A stretch of 64,000 nucleotides of DNA, taken from the NCBI RefSeq assembly GCF_010681825.2, contig NZ_CP066776.1, forward strand, positions 2,170,001 to 2,234,000, given 5' to 3'. This document shows, in pieces, positions 32,358 to 56,743 of this stretch (within the stretch, counting starts at the first letter, position 1; each line of letters starts with the position of its first letter). The stretch is from Sulfuriroseicoccus oceanibius (GTDB lineage Bacteria; Verrucomicrobiota; Verrucomicrobiia; Verrucomicrobiales; SLCJ01). The translations under genes and the position numbers were made by a program. The notes under the pieces are model-generated. The model was not told the DNA's origin and made no database searches. It worked only from the letters and a program-made list of their open reading frames with translations.

Positions 32358-33626
32358 ATGGATAAATTTTTTGTACGCGGCGGAAGTGAATTGAATGGCA
32401 CGGTGAATGTGAGCGGATCGAAGAATTCCTCGCTTCCAATTCTGGCGGCAACACTCCTAACCGATGAGCCATGCATCATCCGCCGGGTGCCTGACGTGTC
32501 CGACGCGAACTACATGGTGCAGATTTTGCAGAACCTGGGCGCGCACGTGGAGCGCTCGAGCGGGATTGTCCGAGTCGAGGCTGAGAAGATCCACCCGAAT
32601 GCTCCGTACGATTTGGTGCGCCGAATGCGTGCGTCGATCTGCGTGATGGGACCGTTGGTTGCGCGCCTCGGTCAGGCTTCGGTGTCGCTACCAGGCGGGT
32701 GTGTTATCGGCGACCGTCCGGTGGACTTGCACTTGCGCGGTTTGAAGGGAATTGGAGCGAAGGTCGAGGTCGAGGGTGGCAACATGTTGATCGATGCAAG
32801 CGAGGGTTTGGTAGGCGACCGGGTTAACCTGCGCGGCAAGCACGGCCCAACCGTTCTGGGCACCGACAACCTGATGATGGCGGCAGTGCTCGCCAAGGGA
32901 ACGACCGTGATCGAAGGCGCTGCAGCCGAGCCGGAAGTGGCGGATCTGGCCGATTTCCTCAACAAAATGGGTGCCAAGATTGAGGGTGCCGGCACGACGA
33001 CAATTGTAATCGAAGGTGTGGAGAAACTCCACGGTGCAGAGCACACTGTGATTCCCGACCGGATTGAGGCGGGGACTTATATGGTTGCGGGCGCGTTGGC
33101 TGGAGGCAAGGTCACGGTGAACCGTGCCAATGCCGAGCACCTGGGGGCTGTGATTGATGTGCTGCGTGAATGCGGGCACGGAGTGGAAGTCGATGGCGAG
33201 CGCATCACCGTGACGCGCAACCCGAATGGTACCGGAGCGGATATTACCACTGCGCCATACCCGGGCTTCCCAACCGACATGCAGGCGCAGATGAGTGCGT
33301 TGTTTGCGATTACTCCGGGGCTCTCGGTGGTGACGGACACCATCTTTCCCGAGCGCTTCATGCACATTGCCGAGATGGCGCGCATGGGCGGCGATTTCAA
33401 GAAGGGGAATGGCAACGTGGTGATCAAAGGCGTCGGTGCCGATGGTTTGAGTGCGGCGCCGGTGATGGCGTCTGACTTGCGTGCCTCGGCGGCACTGGTG
33501 CTGGCAGCGTTGGCTGCAGACGGAGAAACCGAGATCAACCGTGTGTACCATATCGACCGCGGCTACGAACACATCGATGAAAAGCTGCAGACGCTTGGCG
33601 CGCAGATTCATCGCGTTCGGGTTTAG
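32358..33626 (+). CDS. murA: UDP-N-acetylglucosamine 1-carboxyvinyltransferase
   Basis: A 422-residue enzyme of the first committed step of peptidoglycan synthesis. The PEP-reactive cysteine is present ([12 protein letters not shown]115, the same number as in E. coli), so the protein should be fosfomycin sensitive. The start [20 protein letters not shown] is typical. It lies 124 bases after prmC and may have its own promoter. Confidence 0.97.
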
Positions 33627-33678: not shown

Positions 33679-33707
33679 TTGACTCGTTAGTATAGATCTT
33701 TTCTGAT
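33679..33707 (+). promoter_or_regulatory. Promoter of the first SEL1-like gene
   Basis: TTGACT (33679-33684), 17 bases, TCTGAT (33702-33707). The same arrangement recurs before the second paralogue at the same spacing, although the spacer sequence differs; that conservation supports both as real promoters. Confidence 0.6.
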
Positions 33708-33744
33708 GCGACTTCGGGCTGCCTAACTGCAGCCTGGAGTCGCT

Positions 33745-35226
33745 ATGAAAGTTCTTCTCTATGGATTGATTGCACTGCTGTGCAGTCATGCGATGGCGCA
33801 TGACGGGGCGTGGAATGGCAAGCGCTGGGAGCGCGAGCGCTTGTTTGCCGGTGTTGCCGCTGGTGATCCGGATGCGTTGGCGGAATGGGCGTATTGCTCG
33901 AGGAAGGTGCTACTCGGCATTGCCTTCGACGACCAGTTGATCTACTCACGAGCCAAGGAGGCTGCGGACAAGGGATCTTTGTTTGGGAGAAGTCTCGTAG
34001 GGGTCTGTTATTACGATGGAATTGCGGTTGATTGTGACTATGATTTCGCGTTTGAGGTTCTAAGTGATGCCGCATCGCAGGGGTGCGCTTAAGGTGCTGC
34101 CCGGCTTGCATTGGCCTACTCCCATGGCCAGGGGTGCATGTCAGATCCTGAGATGGCACACGAGGTGATCATGTTGGACGTGGGGCCGGAAGCGAGGCTG
34201 AGACGGGCTGTGCTCTCCTCCATTCATCATAAACGTAGCTCGCAGTTCTTCAGTCTTCTGCAAACGACGGACTGTTGGTTGGAAAGTTTTAGCAGAGACG
34301 GGGACATTAATGACGCTGCCTGTCTCTCTTACGCTGGGCGGAGGGTTGGCCGTTATTGGAGTGGGGAGCTAGACAAGCATGTGTTACAACGAGCCCGAGT
34401 TCGGGTTGCTGAGGGGGCGGTTCTAGGGCAGTGGAGAAGCATTAAGGAGGTTATGGAGGTTGGTGGTGATCCTGGGATGAAAAGGTATTTCGAACTGCTC
34501 ACTCTCAGTTCAGGAATGGCTGGGCAAGGATATGCAATGACCGCACTGGCAGAAGCCGGGTCAAGGGATCCGAGCTCGTGGAGTTGGTTCGTGACGAGAA
34601 ACAGCGATGTCGATGCGCTTTGGGGGCGAGCGTTCAGGAGGGCAAGTGGCACTAACGCGATGGCAAGGGTGGCTCGTGATTGGTACGACACTCGGAAGCC
34701 CGTTTCACCGAGGCGTGAATATGCTGCACAGTTGTTGCGGCAGGCAATCAATCGTGACGATGGAGACGGCCACGGTGAGTTTGGGTATTGCCTTTTGTAT
34801 GTTCATTGCTTTCATCAGCACAACCCGGTCGAACTCGACAAAGAACGTGGCATTGCACACTTAATCTATGATTCCGCGACCTCGCCTTACTGCGAGTACC
34901 TCTTGGCATGGTATTTTTTTCGAGGCGGCATAGACGATCGTTGTTTTGATCTTGTTCGTGCAATGGCACTAACCCGGGCGACGGTGAATCGAAAGGGGCA
35001 TGGTAAAGATCGAGAGGTGTTAGCAAGGTGGATCAAGAAATTTGATCAAATGTTAAGTGCCGAGCAAAAGCAGGAGGTCGAGGATTTGCTTAAGCGCGGG
35101 TATCCTCGTAGTGATGAGTTTCGGCGACCGGCATTTGAGTTGCTGAAAAAGGTCGGCGACTTGCCCCCTAACGCGAAATTTGTATCAGCAAAGCCACTGG
35201 CAGAGGACGAGATGTGGGATCGGTAA
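33745..35226 (+). pseudogene. SEL1-repeat exported protein, interrupted by one in-frame stop
   Basis: This is a single reading frame of about 494 codons with one TAA at 34090-34092. Both halves are in the same frame, and the next gene, its paralogue, reads TAT (Tyr) at the aligned position (QGC-G-Y-A versus QGC-A-stop-G). The product would have a signal peptide (ending CSHAMA), SEL1-like helical repeats (SRAKEAADKGSLFGRSLVG) and a conserved C-terminus (RPAFELLKKVGDLPPNAKF). The frame after the stop shows no other lesion and keeps protein-level similarity, so the mutation is recent, read through, or a sequencing error. The first 115 residues alone could be made as a secreted fragment. Confidence 0.8.
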
Positions 35227-35294
35227 AGGCGTTCGCGCGTGGCGTGTGGTTTCGTTGTCGATTTGTGCGCGTCACCTTGTGTAACAGATTGTCA

Positions 35295-35323
35295 TTGACG
35301 GTTCTGGGTGGATTATCTCTGAT
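35295..35323 (+). promoter_or_regulatory. Promoter of the second SEL1-like gene
   Basis: TTGACG (35295-35300), 17 bases, TCTGAT (35318-35323). The -35, spacing and -10 match the promoter of the first copy, and GCCTAACTGC is shared further downstream in both leaders. Confidence 0.6.
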
Positions 35324-35360
35324 GTGATCTCGAGTCGCCTAACTGCGGCTTATATTTGCT

Positions 35361-36860
35361 ATGAAATGGTTTCTTTATGGGGTGATTGCGCTGCTGTGTA
35401 GTCATGCGATGGCGCATGACGGCGCGTGGAATGGCAAGCGCTGGGAGCGTGAACGCTTGTTTGCTGGTGTGGCCGAGGGTGATCCGGATGCACTGGCGGA
35501 ATGGGCGTATTGCTCGAGCAAGGTGTTGCTTGGCATTGCGTACGACGAGCAGTTGATCTACTCACGTGCCAAGGAGGCCGCTGAGAGAGGTTCGCTGTTT
35601 GGTCGAAGCCTGGTGGGGATGTGCTATCAAAATGGAATCGCTGTTGAGATCGATTATGAGTTCTCGGCGCGTGTTCTCAATGAAACCATGGATCAAGGCT
35701 GTGGTTATGCAGCTGGATGGGTCGGGTTCTTGTTTAGCAAAGGTCGCGGCGTGATGCGGGATTTTGACCAAGTCTACGAAATAGCAATGACCAGGGTTCC
35801 CGAGTATGCGCGGTTGCGAGAAACACTGCTTGCCAGCGTCCAGGATGATTCCACTTCATCGTTCTTTAGTCCTGCGTGTACCACCGACAGGTGGATGGAA
35901 AGCTTCGGCAGAACCGGAGATGTCAATGATGCGCTGTGCTCGCTTTATGCTGATGCTTACAGCACTCGGTACTACCCAGGTGGAATCAAGCTGGGCGTGA
36001 AGGATCGTATGGGCGTGCGGATGTGGGATGCCGCAATGCTTGGTCACATTGTTTCAGTGAACCAAGTGGCCTGGACTCGGATTAATGCGGGTGGGCATCG
36101 GTACGGATCCTTATTGGCTTTGAATGCCGGCACTGCGGGGCAAAAGGAAGCTCTGCGCAATTTGGCTGTGGTTTCCTCCAGACCTTACAGCCGACTCGAT
36201 GACCGCTCTCGTGAAGTTCTATTCATCACGAGTGAGGAGAGTGGTGACGATCTTTGGGAACGTGCATGTCGCGCTGGGTTTGTGGACTCTTACTACACTG
36301 GGAACATTGCTCAGAAGTTGTACGATCTTCATATCCCCAAGTCACCGCGGCGTGATTATGCGACTCAGTTGATGAAGCGCATGATTAATCGGGGCGATCC
36401 TGAGGGACATCGCAACCTTGGCTACTGTTTGATGTATGTGCACGGATGGCACCGCTATCATCCGGTGGAGCTTAACAAGAAGCGCGGAATTGCGCATTTG
36501 ATTTATGGGAGCGCAGAGAGTCACGATTGCGAGTGCACGTTGGCGTGGTGTTATTTCAAGGGCGGGATCAACGATCGCTTTCTTGACCGTGTCCGCGGTG
36601 TGGCGTTGGCGCGGGCGACGATCAACCGACGCGGTCATGGGGGATGTGAGACTAAGCTGCGCCAGTGGATTAAAGACGAAGGCGCGAAGCTAAGTGCCGA
36701 GGAGAAGAAACAGGTCGAGGACTTGCTGAAGCGTGGGTTTCCACGCAGCGACGAGTTCCGGCGTCCGGCATTTGAGTTGTTAAAAGAGGTCGGAGATTTG
36801 CCTCCGAACGCAAAGTTTGTTTCAGCGAAACCTTTAAGAGAGGACGAAAAATGGGATTAA
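35361..36860 (+). CDS. SEL1-repeat exported protein (intact paralogue)
   Basis: A 499-residue protein with a signal peptide (about residues 1-18, CSHAMA) and SEL1-like repeats, i.e. TPR-type helical pairs for protein contact. It is paralogous to the preceding frame. The first ~90 residues and last ~55 are almost identical between the two, while the middle has diverged strongly. Cysteines are frequent, as expected for a periplasmic protein with disulfides. A PDZ-protein gene overlaps its last ten bases. Exact function is unknown. Confidence 0.75.
   Translation: MKWFLYGVIALLCSHAMAHDGAWNGKRWERERLFAGVAEGDPDALAEWAYCSSKVLLGIAYDEQLIYSRAKEAAERGSLFGRSLVGMCYQNGIAVEIDYEFSARVLNETMDQGCGYAAGWVGFLFSKGRGVMRDFDQVYEIAMTRVPEYARLRETLLASVQDDSTSSFFSPACTTDRWMESFGRTGDVNDALCSLYADAYSTRYYPGGIKLGVKDRMGVRMWDAAMLGHIVSVNQVAWTRINAGGHRYGSLLALNAGTAGQKEALRNLAVVSSRPYSRLDDRSREVLFITSEESGDDLWERACRAGFVDSYYTGNIAQKLYDLHIPKSPRRDYATQLMKRMINRGDPEGHRNLGYCLMYVHGWHRYHPVELNKKRGIAHLIYGSAESHDCECTLAWCYFKGGINDRFLDRVRGVALARATINRRGHGGCETKLRQWIKDEGAKLSAEEKKQVEDLLKRGFPRSDEFRRPAFELLKEVGDLPPNAKFVSAKPLREDEKWD
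36838..36844 (+). promoter_or_regulatory. Ribosome-binding site inside the SEL1-like gene
   Basis: GAGAGGA lies six bases before the ATG at 36851 and supports that start over the ATG at 36863, which has no good site. Confidence 0.55.
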
Positions 36861-37462
36861 GGATGAAGTGTTTTAGTATGGTTGTTTGCGGGGCTTGCCT
36901 TCTCGCACTCGGGCACGCGAGCGAGAGCTCCGACGTTCAGCAGATTGTGCGGGGCGTGGTGAACGTGGAGGATCCATCTGTCGAGCAGCGCGAGGCATTT
37001 GCATTGGCTGTGGTACGCGATCTCGATGCTCTGAAGCTACGTCTGATCGACCTGAAACTCGGCGACGATGCCGCGCTTGCGCAATCGGCAGCGCAGCTTT
37101 TGCAGCGCTTTGATGGTGCCTGGTCGCCGGACGCCGGGGAACATCGTCTCGGCCTCAAGCTACGGTGGTGGGTCGAGCTCCACGGCGATGAATTAGTTTA
37201 CACTCCACTGGTAGCGGAGGTGCAAATTGGTTCACTGGCGGAAAACAATGGCATCCGTGTAGGCGATGTCATCGAATTGGTAAACGACCTGCCACTGAAG
37301 GGGGATGTCGCCCCTCTTCGTTTTCTGACCATGGCAGCAATGTGGCCGCAGGATCGCCCGATGTATCTGTCAGTTCGACGTCAGGTCGAGGGCGGGACGG
37401 AGCGGCTCAACACAACGCCACGCGGCGATGAAACACTTTTGAAGATTAACTTTGACCAGTAA
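36851..37462 (+). CDS. Exported PDZ-domain protein
   Basis: A 203-residue protein whose start overlaps the stop of the SEL1-like gene. It has a signal peptide (about residues 1-23, ending GHASE), a helical region, and a PDZ-like domain (about 115-185) recognisable from VQIGSLAENNGIRVGDVIELVNDLPL. No protease domain is attached, so it probably binds C-terminal peptides in the periplasm. Its stop overlaps the next start (TAATG), so the SEL1, PDZ and TPR proteins should be made together. Confidence 0.7.
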   Translation: MGLRMKCFSMVVCGACLLALGHASESSDVQQIVRGVVNVEDPSVEQREAFALAVVRDLDALKLRLIDLKLGDDAALAQSAAQLLQRFDGAWSPDAGEHRLGLKLRWWVELHGDELVYTPLVAEVQIGSLAENNGIRVGDVIELVNDLPLKGDVAPLRFLTMAAMWPQDRPMYLSVRRQVEGGTERLNTTPRGDETLLKINFDQ

Positions 37463-39600
37463 TGAGGCACTCGGAATCCCCTGCGAGAGGAAAACAAGCA
37501 ACGGCAGCATGTTTGCTGATATCACTGATGGCTGCGGGTTGTTCGGAGGCGCCTGACGCGGCCCCGCAAGCGGAGGCATCTGCGGATCGCGAGTCGCCTG
37601 CTGTGGTATCGCCTGAGCCATCGGTAGTAGCGCCGCGCCCTGTGGTCGCAGATGAGGAAAAATCCGAGTTTGCGCAGATTGAACGTGTGGTGCGCGCCTC
37701 GGCACAGCGTTCCGGGTATCTGGAAAAAACCGCGCCCTTGGTGAATTTGGCGCGGCTTTGCGATCGCTTCGGGTTGCGAGCTGAGGCGGATGGTTGCTGT
37801 CAGCGTCTGTGGCAGTCCGCAGTGTTGGACTCGAACGATCGCTATGCGCGTCGTCTACTGATCGGCTTCCTGTTGGAGTCGGGGAGGGAGGATCAACTTC
37901 AAGCCTGGGTGAGCGACATTGGTTCCATTCGGCGCACGATCGATGTATTGAGCGATCTTGGGGGATTGATGGAGTTTGAAGATGACGATGAAGTGAGTCC
38001 GGCAGTTCGTGTGTTTGCCAAGGCCTTGGAGTGTGCGTTGGTGGCGGAAAGCGTGCCACTGCGCGATGCGCTGGCGCGCTCGGTCCTGTGCGATGCAGCG
38101 GACAGCGGCTACTTCGTCTTTGCTCTCACGAACTTGAGTCGGATTGGCGACGACGCGACGCGTGATGTCGCGGTGACTTACGTGATTGAAGCCTGCGTGA
38201 AGGCGCATGAACAAGAGCGGATGGCACCTCCGGTGTCGTATGTGTTAGGGCAGGTCCCCGATGTTTCGGATGGTACTTTGCATCAGATTGCTAAAATTGT
38301 AGCGCAGTCCAAGAACCCGAACGACGTGGTGACGATTGCCGAGCGCATTGAGGCTTCTTACGAAAAGGCGGTCGCGCTTGTTTTGGCGGCAGAGGGGTAC
38401 ATCAAGCGCGGGGAAAACGAAAAGGCGGTGAAATTACTAGAGAAGGCGCATGCCTTGGCTCCATCGGGCACAGGAACCGAGCCTCTGGGATTTGAAAATG
38501 CGCTGAGCTTACGCCACGACATGGCCGAGGCCTACGGCGACGCAGGAATGGCAGCAAAAGCCGCCAAACTGAGCGATGAAATCTATACCATTGTCACCGC
38601 CGATAGCGTCTACAGTGGGATCATTGAGACCAAAGTGGTGGATGCCGTGGTCGAACATTACGTAGCGGCTGGGAAAACCGGTAAAGCGAGCGGCTTCCTC
38701 AAGCACTTCTCCAGTAACATCGATGCGTTCGGGCACACAGTGGCCTTCGGTGAGGCATTGATTGAGGCCGGTGAGAGCGATGAGGCGTTAGGCGTCTATT
38801 CCAGATGCCTCGATCTGATTGGCAAGGATTCGCCGCGTGCGGTCTATGCGAGTGGGGTGGTGCACGGTTTCGTGGCGCTCGATCGTCTCGACCTCGTGGA
38901 CCAGACTCTCGAAGCTGTGGCTCCCCGCTTCCGATCGACTGCGGTGATTCGCTGTGCGGATCAGCTGCTGGAGGAGGGCGCGTTGGATCACATTGATGCG
39001 CTCACCGAGCGGCTTCCAAACATCTGCGACCGTGTGGACTTGTGGGCTCGCTTGGCGACGGCCTACCAGAAACATGACCAGCCTGAGGAGGCCCGGGGGT
39101 ATTTAGAGAAAGCGCTGGTCGAAGTAGAGCAGGGGGCGTTGCAGAAGGCGGATGAGAACCTGTCAGCACTGCGTGCGATGAACGCATTGAACGAAGCGAC
39201 ACTGGCTGTCGGCAGCGAGACGGAACGCGCTTTGTGGCTGCGCGCCATGTACGAAATGCCCAATCAGGAGGTCTTTTGCCGTTGGTTCCTGAACGTGGCG
39301 CCCGACCTTCTGAGCGCGGGGCGTTTCGATGAGGTGGTCAATTGGTACCGCATGTTTGGTGCGGAGCGTGTGTTTAGTTACGAGTTCATGTTGCGCTCGT
39401 TGGTGAAATCGGCACTGGAGCAGGGACGTCCGGACGTGGCGCAGGAGGCTGGGATTTGGTTGATGAAGCGATCCGAGGATGTTGTGGATTCCGCGTTGTT
39501 TTTGTGCACGACCTACCTTGAGTTCGGGCAAGACCTGCCAAGTACACTTGGCGATGCGGTTTTCATGAGGATCGAGTCAAAAGCGATCGCAGTTCGTTGA
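37462..39600 (+). CDS. TPR-repeat lipoprotein
   Basis: A 712-residue protein with a lipoprotein signal (LLISLMAAGC, lipidated Cys at 27), a Pro/Ala linker (~30-65), and then helical TPR-like repeats to the end, for example AEGYIKRGENEKAVKLLEKA near residue 320. It would sit on the periplasmic face of a membrane, lipidated by Lgt. It is translationally coupled to the PDZ gene through TAATG. No enzymatic motif was seen. It is the likely membrane anchor of an exported SEL1-PDZ-TPR assembly (inference). Confidence 0.75.
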   Translation: MRHSESPARGKQATAACLLISLMAAGCSEAPDAAPQAEASADRESPAVVSPEPSVVAPRPVVADEEKSEFAQIERVVRASAQRSGYLEKTAPLVNLARLCDRFGLRAEADGCCQRLWQSAVLDSNDRYARRLLIGFLLESGREDQLQAWVSDIGSIRRTIDVLSDLGGLMEFEDDDEVSPAVRVFAKALECALVAESVPLRDALARSVLCDAADSGYFVFALTNLSRIGDDATRDVAVTYVIEACVKAHEQERMAPPVSYVLGQVPDVSDGTLHQIAKIVAQSKNPNDVVTIAERIEASYEKAVALVLAAEGYIKRGENEKAVKLLEKAHALAPSGTGTEPLGFENALSLRHDMAEAYGDAGMAAKAAKLSDEIYTIVTADSVYSGIIETKVVDAVVEHYVAAGKTGKASGFLKHFSSNIDAFGHTVAFGEALIEAGESDEALGVYSRCLDLIGKDSPRAVYASGVVHGFVALDRLDLVDQTLEAVAPRFRSTAVIRCADQLLEEGALDHIDALTERLPNICDRVDLWARLATAYQKHDQPEEARGYLEKALVEVEQGALQKADENLSALRAMNALNEATLAVGSETERALWLRAMYEMPNQEVFCRWFLNVAPDLLSAGRFDEVVNWYRMFGAERVFSYEFMLRSLVKSALEQGRPDVAQEAGIWLMKRSEDVVDSALFLCTTYLEFGQDLPSTLGDAVFMRIESKAIAVR

Positions 39601-53872: not shown

Positions 53873-54484
53873 ATGGCCATGGCGATTGATTTTCCCGACT
53901 CCGTGCGAGAACTGGTGACCCGGCTCAAAAAGCTGCCGGGGGTGGGACCGCGCAGTGCCGAACGTATCGCCGTTTGGTTGATCAACCAGCGCAGTGGCGA
54001 AGCGGGCCTGCTTTCCGGTGCGTTGGCGAAAGTCGACCAGGCGGTCAGCTTGTGCCGCCGCTGCGGTTTTTTCATGGATGAAGGGGCGTGCGCAGCATGT
54101 GCCGCTGCCGATCGCGACCGAACAGTGATGTGCGTGGTCGCCCAGCCGACGGACGTGCTGTCCATCGAGCGCACCGGACAGTTCAAAGGGCGCTATCATG
54201 TGCTTGGCGGGACATTGTCACCTTTGGACAATGTGACCCCGGAGGATCTGAACATCGACGAGTTGTGTCGTCGCTGCGGAGAGGGGTCAGACGTGACCGA
54301 GGTTGTGCTTGCTTTGGGCTCGGATGTTGAAGGTGAAGCAACGAGTCATTACCTGGTCGAGCGCCTGGTGCGCGACGGGCTACAAGTCACGCGTTTGGCA
54401 CACGGTTTGCCAGCAGGTGGAGGGATCGATCACGCTGACCCTCTGACATTGATGCGCGCGTTCACCGACCGGCGTTCGGTTTGA
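53873..54484 (+). CDS. recR: Recombination mediator RecR
   Basis: A 203-residue RecR: an N-terminal helix-hairpin-helix (LKKLPGVGPRSAERIA), a four-cysteine zinc finger (CRRCGFFMDEGACAAC), a Toprim domain (LALGSDVEGEATSHYL) and the C-terminal LAHGLPAGGGIDHADPLTL. It acts with RecO and RecF to load RecA at gaps. It is closely spaced after the cyclase-like gene. Confidence 0.97.
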   Translation: MAMAIDFPDSVRELVTRLKKLPGVGPRSAERIAVWLINQRSGEAGLLSGALAKVDQAVSLCRRCGFFMDEGACAACAAADRDRTVMCVVAQPTDVLSIERTGQFKGRYHVLGGTLSPLDNVTPEDLNIDELCRRCGEGSDVTEVVLALGSDVEGEATSHYLVERLVRDGLQVTRLAHGLPAGGGIDHADPLTLMRAFTDRRSV

Positions 54485-54548
54485 CCTGAGCACGGAAGAG
54501 TCGGGGGATGCCAGCCAATGCGCGGGAGTTGTTTGATCTTCTCGCAAT

Positions 54549-54568
54549 TTGATTAAAGAGGGCTTGAT
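54549..54568. repeat. Direct repeat left of the GH20 gene
   Basis: TTGATTAAAGAGGGCTTGAT matches TTGATTAGAGAGGGCTTAAT at 56833-56852 in 18 of 20 positions, flanking the hexosaminidase gene. Confidence 0.35.
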
Positions 54569-54682
54569 CCGAGCTCGTATCTGGGGCGCAATTGGCAGCG
54601 CTGATTGCAACGTGGATGTGAACTGACTTTCGTTACATCCGGCGAACACCGTCACGTTGGAATAACCCCAAAAGCCTCAAGA

Positions 54683-56743
54683 ATGATTAACAATAGATTC
54701 ACTCTCGTATTGGCGGCCGCCAGTACGCTATCGCTCACATCGTCCATGCTAGCTTCCACGCCTCCCAGCATCATCCCGAAACCATCCACACTGACCCTGG
54801 CTGAGAACGCCTCTGGATTCACCCTGGGTGCCGACACAACCATCGTTCACTCACCAGAGTTGAAGGCGGAGGCTGCATTACTGGCCGACTATTTGAAACC
54901 TGCCACTGGGTTTGAACTCAAGACGGTAGGTTCAGCTGCAGGTGAGGGCGGCGTGATCGAGCTCGCGATGGACCCGTCGATGAGCGACAACACCGGCGCC
55001 TACAGCCTGGCGGCGAAGGACGGAAAAGTGACCATCACCGGCACCACGCCAGCTGCGGTTTTCTACGGCATCCAGTCGCTGCGCCAGATCCTGCCAGTAG
55101 AGATTTTGTCGGATGAGAAAGTCGACGGAGTCGAGTGGTCTGTGCCAGCTGTGGAGGTCAAAGACGAGCCCCGCTTCGGCTGGCGTGGGATGCACTTGGA
55201 CGTCGGCCGCCACATGTTCGAGGTCGACGACATCAAGAAGTTCATCGATTTGCTCGCGTTGCACAAGTTGAGCAACTTCCATTGGCACCTGACGGAAGAT
55301 CAGGGGTGGCGGGTTGAGATCAAGAAGTATCCGAAGCTGACCGAAGTTGGCGCCTGGCGCAAGAGCACCCCTCCATACGGAGATCGCAGCGCGAGCGACG
55401 GCAAGCGCTATGGCGGTTTCTACACCCAGGAGCAGATTAAGGAGATCGTGGCTTATGCGGCAGAGCGCCACATCACGATCGTTCCAGAGATCGATATGCC
55501 GGGTCACATGGCGGCGGCGATTGCATCGTACCCTGAGTTCGGGAACACCGACGTGCCGAACTACGCACCGGAAGTCTGCACGTCGTGGGGAGTGCACCCT
55601 TACGTGTTGTCTCCAACCGAGGAAACATTCCAGTTCGTCGATGACGTTCTCGGTGAGATTTGCGAATTGTTCCCGTCAGAGTACATCCACATCGGTGGGG
55701 ATGAAGCACCGAAGACGCAATGGCAACAGTCGAAGATCGCGCAGGACGTGATCAAGCGCGAGGGGCTCAAGGATGAGCACGAGCTGCAAAGCTACTTTAT
55801 CCGCCGCGTCGAGAAGATGCTCAACAAGCGTGGGCGTCGACTGATCGGATGGGATGAGATTCGTGAAGGCGGGCTTTCACCAAGCGCTACCGTCATGTCG
55901 TGGCGCGGAGTTGGTCCGGGGATTGCTTCCGCCAAAGAGGGTAATGACGTGGTCATGGCTCCGAACAGTCACACGTATTTCGACCACTATCAGGCTCCAA
56001 GCGCCCAAGAGTTGGCGAAAGGGGTCGAGTTTGAAGCTATCGGCGGCTACCTCCCGATCACCAAGCTCTACGATTTCGATCCGGTGCTCCCAGGCCAGCT
56101 GACTGAAGAGGAGAACGACCATGTACTCGGCGTCCAGGCCCAGCTTTGGACTGAGTACATGAAGACCTGGGACAAGGTCGAATACATGGCATTCCCTCGT
56201 GTGGCAGCACTTTCGGAGATTGCCTGGACCCAGCCGTCGCAGAAGGACTTCAAGGACTTCGCAGGACGCCTTGAGACGATGATGAAGCGCTACGAGGCGC
56301 TCGGAGTAAACGCGTACAGTGACCCGATTCCACTGCCGCCGCAGTCGCTCCCTGGCACATCGGTGGACACCTCGCTGCCATCGCATGGTGAATACCACGC
56401 GGTGCAGGCGCACGACGGCAAGCCGGACACTGTCTTCTGGTCGTCCCGAGGTCCACAGGTCAATGATCACCTGACCGTGCGCTTCGATGAGCCAAGCAAA
56501 GGCGGCAATATCCGCGTGTTCACCGGTGGTGACGGCAAACACGCAGGGGACACACTGCGCAATGGCGTGGTGGAAGTGACCAGCGACGACAGCAAGTGGG
56601 TCGAGGTTGCAAAGTTCGACAACGGCATGGCGACCGGTGAGGTTCCTGCGGGGACGCTCGCTGTACGCATGCGCGCTACTGGCAACCAGGAGAACTGGCT
56701 GATTGTCAAGGAGGTGGTGATCGAAGAGGTTCGCCGCGACTAA
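54683..56743 (+). CDS. Exported beta-N-acetylhexosaminidase (GH20)
   Basis: About 686 residues from the ATG at 54683, which begins a clear signal peptide (to about residue 26). The GH20b-like domain is followed by the catalytic barrel: the paired catalytic residues are in HIGGDEAPKTQW (D340, E341), with GWRGMHLDVGRHMF and EIDMPGHMAAAIA also diagnostic. The last ~130 residues look like a discoidin/F5-8-type carbohydrate-binding domain. It removes terminal GlcNAc or GalNAc from chitin oligomers, glycans or peptidoglycan fragments outside the cytoplasm. Confidence 0.93.
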   Translation: MINNRFTLVLAAASTLSLTSSMLASTPPSIIPKPSTLTLAENASGFTLGADTTIVHSPELKAEAALLADYLKPATGFELKTVGSAAGEGGVIELAMDPSMSDNTGAYSLAAKDGKVTITGTTPAAVFYGIQSLRQILPVEILSDEKVDGVEWSVPAVEVKDEPRFGWRGMHLDVGRHMFEVDDIKKFIDLLALHKLSNFHWHLTEDQGWRVEIKKYPKLTEVGAWRKSTPPYGDRSASDGKRYGGFYTQEQIKEIVAYAAERHITIVPEIDMPGHMAAAIASYPEFGNTDVPNYAPEVCTSWGVHPYVLSPTEETFQFVDDVLGEICELFPSEYIHIGGDEAPKTQWQQSKIAQDVIKREGLKDEHELQSYFIRRVEKMLNKRGRRLIGWDEIREGGLSPSATVMSWRGVGPGIASAKEGNDVVMAPNSHTYFDHYQAPSAQELAKGVEFEAIGGYLPITKLYDFDPVLPGQLTEEENDHVLGVQAQLWTEYMKTWDKVEYMAFPRVAALSEIAWTQPSQKDFKDFAGRLETMMKRYEALGVNAYSDPIPLPPQSLPGTSVDTSLPSHGEYHAVQAHDGKPDTVFWSSRGPQVNDHLTVRFDEPSKGGNIRVFTGGDGKHAGDTLRNGVVEVTSDDSKWVEVAKFDNGMATGEVPAGTLAVRMRATGNQENWLIVKEVVIEEVRRD

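Follow-up and report, generated by a model that had tools for sequence, protein, structure and literature searches.

An exported SEL1-repeat protein and its PDZ partner, encoded side by side or as a fusion, in Sulfuriroseicoccus oceanibius and related genomes

Introduction

NlpI-Prc and LbcA-CtpA are pairs of a TPR lipoprotein and a PDZ protease. A different type of envelope regulator is represented by the periplasmic SEL1 protein IltA (PA3978), which binds and inhibits MltF and is itself countered by an outer-membrane lipoprotein (PMC10746161). Periplasmic SEL1 regulators (IltA, ExoR) and the TPR-lipoprotein/PDZ-protease pairs are the closest functional analogues of the locus described here. 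Like IltA/LiiA and ExoR, this locus encodes an exported SEL1-repeat protein without an enzyme domain, and the dedicated partner of IltA is a lipoprotein (PMC10746161). But IltA has a mass of 17 kDa and three repeats, and it lacks a PDZ partner. Unlike IltA and ExoR, the protein studied here comprises 499 amino acids, with repeats only at residues ~60-190, conserved ends marked by the motifs DGxWNGKPW and GYP..R..A, and a PDZ protein as constant neighbor or fusion partner.

The locus resembles NlpI-Prc and LbcA-CtpA in combining a TPR lipoprotein with an exported PDZ protein, both with a presumed role in the envelope. In contrast to those systems, the PDZ protein lacks a protease domain and has a SEL1 partner, and the TPR gene is not conserved together with this pair. 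The PDZ family profile aligns with the PDZ domains of DegP/DegQ and RseP (1.5e-17 to PDZ1 of DegP/DegP-like protease), but the PDZ domain described here stands alone behind a helical N-terminal part, with no catalytic domain attached. As in SEL1L/Hrd3 and other SEL1-repeat adaptors, which are matched by the profile, the SEL1 solenoid may serve as a substrate-binding adaptor. SEL1L and Hrd3 are, however, eukaryotic ERAD components without a PDZ partner, and the resemblance is restricted to the repeat level.

Results

One intact and one interrupted SEL1-like gene precede pdz and tpr

The window, i.e., the whole stretch of 64,000 nucleotides that was analyzed, covers positions 2,170,001-2,234,000 of a genome consisting of one contig of 3,496,488 bases. 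The gene order is prfA-prmC-murA, sel1a, sel1b, pdz, tpr, htpG:

32358-33626: murA, 5' of the four genes
33745..35226, forward strand: sel1a, interrupted SEL1-like paralogue, predicted product 115 aa; shares 57% identity with sel1b and contains a single in-frame TAA
35361..36860, forward strand: sel1b, intact SEL1-like gene; exported product of 499 aa whose mature form begins with HDGAWNGKRW, matched by the family profile over its full length (5.5e-187)
36851..37462, forward strand: pdz, exported helical and PDZ protein, 203 aa, PDZ domain at about residues 97-180
37460..37464, forward strand: TAATG in which the pdz stop and the tpr start overlap
37462..39600, forward strand: tpr, encoding a putative TPR lipoprotein of 712 aa with the lipobox LMAAGC (Cys27); a neighbor specific to this genome
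39935-41788: htpG, 3' of the four genes

All four neighboring genes named in the original prediction are present on the forward strand in the interval between murA and htpG, but of its two SEL1 paralogues only one is intact. Both overlaps that had been described are real: the pdz start codon (ATG at 36851) creates a 10-nt overlap with the end of sel1b (36851-36860; sel1b stop codon 36858-36860), and pdz and tpr share the TAATG at 37460-37464. Overlaps are ordinary in this window, where they occur at 4 of 24 same-strand gaps. A link to the flanking genes was rejected, since neither murA nor htpG keeps its neighborhood in the same-genus genome G001, where the two lie apart with different neighbors. 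Other genes follow murA in G002, and the murA adjacency is unique to the window genome. A second gene pair with the same product lengths as pdz and tpr (203 and 712 aa; 53873-56743) was dismissed as a coincidence: it encodes RecR (53873-54484) and a GH20 enzyme (54605-56743).

The interruption of sel1a is a single in-frame stop codon:

34090..34092, forward strand: in-frame TAA at codon 116 of sel1a, followed by 377 more open codons

By base composition, a frame staying open over these 377 codons has a probability of ~1e-8, and the sequence beyond the TAA matches the SEL1 family profile. Therefore, either a nonsense mutation arose here recently or the stop codon is an error of sequencing. Beyond the first ~100 codons, silent changes between sel1a and sel1b have reached saturation. 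Amino-acid-changing differences are few at the two ends (dN ~0.09) and numerous in the central part (0.58). The opening ~250-300 bases of the two copies (33745-34045 versus 35361-35661) are much more alike than the remainder; dS along the copies runs from 0.5 to 1.4 and then to saturation, a sign of gene conversion. On this pattern of dS and dN, sel1a reads as an old duplicate that was long retained by selection, carries traces of gene conversion at its 5' end and was recently stopped, unless the stop is a sequencing error.

Both SEL1 copies are preceded by the same promoter-like element

The leaders of the two SEL1 copies contain the following elements:

33679..33708, forward strand: TTGAC-N18-TCTGATG promoter-like element of sel1a, exactly 66 nt before the ATG
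33708..33743, forward strand: leader hairpin of sel1a, an inverted repeat of 15 bp around the loop CTAACT, -29.7 kcal/mol, z -5.9
35295..35324, forward strand: TTGAC-N18-TCTGATG promoter-like element of sel1b-pdz-tpr, exactly 66 nt before the ATG
35332..35351, forward strand: leader hairpin of sel1b, 7 bp around the loop CTAACT, weak alone, z -1.2

The motif TTGAC-N18-TCTGATG matches twice in the whole window, with 0 matches expected, and each match precedes a SEL1 ATG. Because the element is kept at 66 nt in each copy, sel1a and sel1b-pdz-tpr appear to be transcribed separately, as two units. The hairpins are candidates for an operator or a translational hairpin. Their CTAACT loop is common to both copies; the sel1b stem still pairs, with two compensatory changes relative to the sel1a copy, and the sel1a hairpin spans the GGAG and reaches the ATG. 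A known riboswitch or leader RNA was also considered, but the SEL1 leaders gave no Rfam match.

The products carry export signals and no enzyme domain

In agreement with the original prediction, N-terminal export signals were identified by inspection on all four genes. Both SEL1 proteins start with MK(W/V)..LCSHAMA ahead of HD, the PDZ protein starts with MKCFSMVVCGACLLALGHA ahead of SE, and the TPR protein has the lipobox LMAAGC with putative lipidation at Cys27. Across the family, signal peptides were recognized by eye on every SEL1 and on nearly every stand-alone PDZ protein. The statement that no enzyme domain is present also holds, as neither Pfam nor further domain and structure searches matched one in the window proteins.

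SEL1 repeats are recognizable by sequence, although Sel1 stays below the Pfam threshold in the window protein (0.16); across the family, Pfam matches it in 5 of the 15 members. Among solved proteins, phmmer detected 8sxq (2.4e-8), and the family profile reached 1.6e-51 with 6ok3. The similarity is confined to residues ~60-190 of 499, and the rest is helical by prediction. The window PDZ protein matches PDZ_6 slightly below the Pfam cut-off (1.6e-5) and has the glycine of the carboxylate-binding loop (RLGLKL). NlpI and LbcA work with a PDZ-containing protease; in the PDZ protein coupled to tpr, Pfam and PDB searches found no protease domain. The TPR protein combines its lipobox with a TPR array (TPR_7, 5.7e-10, above the Pfam cut-offs). 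AlphaFold models of SEL1b (two-sequence alignment) and of PDZ alone had pLDDT values of 44 and 37, too low to be used.

SEL1 and PDZ are linked in other genomes

A sample of 388 genomes of the phylum was searched separately with the SEL1 and the PDZ single sequences. In G274, both queries matched the same open frames of 716 and 728 codons, and in G415 they matched adjacent genes at two loci. SEL1 and PDZ profiles derived from these matches were run over 337 genomes of the order and recovered, besides the window locus, 14 full-length SEL1 family loci in ten genomes (three in G274, two each in G415 and G497, and one each in G597, G661, G532, G629, G669, G553, and G220). A PDZ lies directly at the SEL1 3' end at all 14 of them. 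It is fused to SEL1 in a single protein of ~710 aa at five loci (two in G274, one each in G497, G661, and G532), encoded by a co-directional downstream gene within 10-35 nt at three (G497, G629, G669), and by a convergent neighbor at six (two in G415, one each in G597, G553, G220, and G274). Nine of the 14 linked loci played no part in building the PDZ profile, and with uniform placement the chance of such complete linkage is ~1e-40. Because the two lie side by side or fused in ten related genomes, SEL1 and PDZ are, as far as genome comparison can tell, a genuine and undescribed partner pair.

The phylogenies of the two proteins agree. In the SEL1 tree, members with a fused or co-directional PDZ split from those with a convergent PDZ (83/92, moderate), and in the PDZ tree the fused and co-directional PDZs form one clade (97/94). 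The G220, G553, and G274C47 members show an identical sub-topology in both trees. Since inner branches are often weak, we treat this agreement as supporting evidence.

The distribution of the pair is patchy: counting the window genome, 11 of the 337 genomes of the order carry it. A full-length SEL1 homologue is missing from the genomes of the same genus and family, which shows that the module can be dispensed with; the 57 nearest genomes contain generic SEL1-repeat fragments only. No full-length SEL1 member was found outside the order in a sample of 78 phylum genomes, and scans of genome contigs queried with the SEL1 pair or with TPR, as well as a viral-contig scan and a plasmid scan, gave no match. 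At one G415 locus, a tyrosine recombinase gene (L070 404-1897; Phage_integrase 3.5e-33) lies directly upstream of the SEL1 gene.

One way to read this patchy distribution is that SEL1 and PDZ are co-transcribed neighbors in accessory islands whose products act apart, and that their linkage reflects joint horizontal transfer. The varied neighbors, the recombinase beside one locus and the several copies per genome are in line with such an origin, but it does not account well for five in-frame fusions, an exclusive pairing at 14 of 14 loci and congruent trees. Furthermore, the pair has no regular companion: at these loci no gene family recurs beyond SEL1 and PDZ, a client gene included. We therefore consider joint transfer improbable as an explanation and retain a partnership of the two proteins.

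The TPR lipoprotein is not part of the conserved unit

The original prediction had proposed a three-gene SEL1-PDZ-TPR module. Linkage in other genomes strongly bore this out for SEL1 and PDZ, with 14 of 14 loci linked and five fused, but not for TPR. No TPR homologue occurs at SEL1-PDZ loci elsewhere, a search of 289 phylum genomes at 1e-6 detected none, and relatives gave a single weak repeat-level match. TPR was rejected as a conserved third member, because it never co-occurs with SEL1 and PDZ in other genomes. Since SEL1 and PDZ are linked and TPR is not, the real unit consists of two genes, and TPR, judged by its distribution, is a lineage-specific local addition.

This result bears on the possibility that SEL1-PDZ is an inhibitor/anti-inhibitor or cell-wall-hydrolase adaptor comparable to IltA/LiiA, NlpI-Prc, and LbcA-CtpA, with TPR as a true third subunit in this genome. 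The pdz/tpr overlap would fit such an arrangement, as would the pairing of TPR lipoproteins with PDZ proteases in NlpI-Prc and LbcA-CtpA. A SEL1 inhibitor with a lipoprotein has a precedent in Pseudomonas (PMC10746161). But a PDZ protein lacking a protease domain, a TPR protein missing at every other locus and in the 289 phylum genomes, and neighbors that are not hydrolases, with murA adjacent in the window genome only, make this reading rather unlikely compared with a two-protein unit.

Conserved ends, a variable middle and a lost glycine

The SEL1 family has a signature that starts with DGxWNGKPW and ends with GYP..R..A. Mean identity is 0.43 and 0.39 at the two ends and 0.15-0.19 in most of the middle; pairs of paralogues are likewise conserved at their ends and diverged in between. 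The C-termini of the SEL1 proteins are not conserved, which makes it unlikely that PDZ binds the tail in the canonical way. In the linkers of three fusions, a hydrophobic stretch occupies the place of the partner's signal peptide, which suggests that the fusions arose from once-separate exported proteins.

The glycine of the PDZ carboxylate loop is present in 16 of 16 stand-alone PDZs and lost in four of five fused ones (Fisher p 0.0008, uncorrected for kinship). This loss would fit a groove docking made unnecessary by fusion. Fusion loci, however, also tend to have a second PDZ, which confounds the pattern, and the only case against this confounder is G669, with a second PDZ, no fusion, and the glycine kept. 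The second stand-alone PDZ belongs to a separate clade, carries a C-terminal F..WL motif and lies beside five SEL1-PDZ loci:

L068 11641-12360: second-class PDZ gene
L131 9463-10341: second-class PDZ gene
L135 3922-4599: second-class PDZ gene
L134 6527-7249: second-class PDZ gene
L138 7022-7696: second-class PDZ gene

The order has many related HEAT-like/PDZ proteins that occur without SEL1.

In G274, a trio of genes upstream of the SEL1-PDZ fusions (L068 1177-3783) weakly matched the PADLOC models for PycC, an E2-like protein, and PycTM, and is a candidate hybrid Pycsar/E2 defence operon. A defence-island reading of SEL1-PDZ was rejected, as a single locus lies near defence-like genes.

A variable middle might also track an external partner, as in immunity-like or surface-recognition factors of competition or defence. 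Tandem copies, one inactivated copy, the patchy distribution and the Pycsar/E2-like trio near one locus would suit this explanation. But the three window proteins (SEL1, PDZ, TPR) have no PADLOC match and no PHROG function, the defence-like genes are limited to that locus, and nothing toxin-like recurs beside the pair. A role in competition or defence thus appears quite improbable to us. The divergent middle could also reflect relaxed constraint rather than client recognition.

Discussion

We favor a model in which sel1b and pdz encode two halves of an exported accessory adaptor that would work as one unit and bind an envelope client, and we give it about even chances. The SEL1 solenoid, with its conserved ends and variable middle, would form one adaptor together with the helical (HEAT-like)/PDZ arm; in the window genome the overlapping sel1b and pdz genes are probably expressed from one transcript. 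The conserved ends of the solenoid (~50-100 N-terminal and 50 C-terminal residues) may be where the PDZ partner or a shared anchor is held, and the diverged middle may bind the client, for example a hydrolase, a sensor, or a surface protein. The resulting complex, with its presumed location in the envelope, would then sequester the client or hand it on. The TPR lipoprotein may tether the pair to a membrane, a role that NlpI and LbcA play for their PDZ proteases. The periplasmic scaffold or quality-control complex envisaged in the original prediction, with this lipoprotein as its anchor, is likewise conjectural. A bolder version, which we regard as unlikely, is that these proteins represent a new kind of envelope adaptor with a client-binding middle, whose PDZ arm would dock when the genes are separate and is covalently attached when they are fused.

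The domains themselves are of known kinds, but there seems to be no earlier description of their pairing, of the family signature or of the fusions; in the part of the literature that our search covered, we found no description of a bacterial SEL1 and PDZ pair.

Four unannotated genes have hereby been turned into a defined and testable protein pair with the signature DGxWNGKPW ... GYP..R..A, for which natural fusions tell which proteins belong together. The same fusions provide a natural experiment on the decay of docking surfaces after partner fusion. The SEL1-PDZ pair may offer a route to an uncharacterized envelope function in its lineage.
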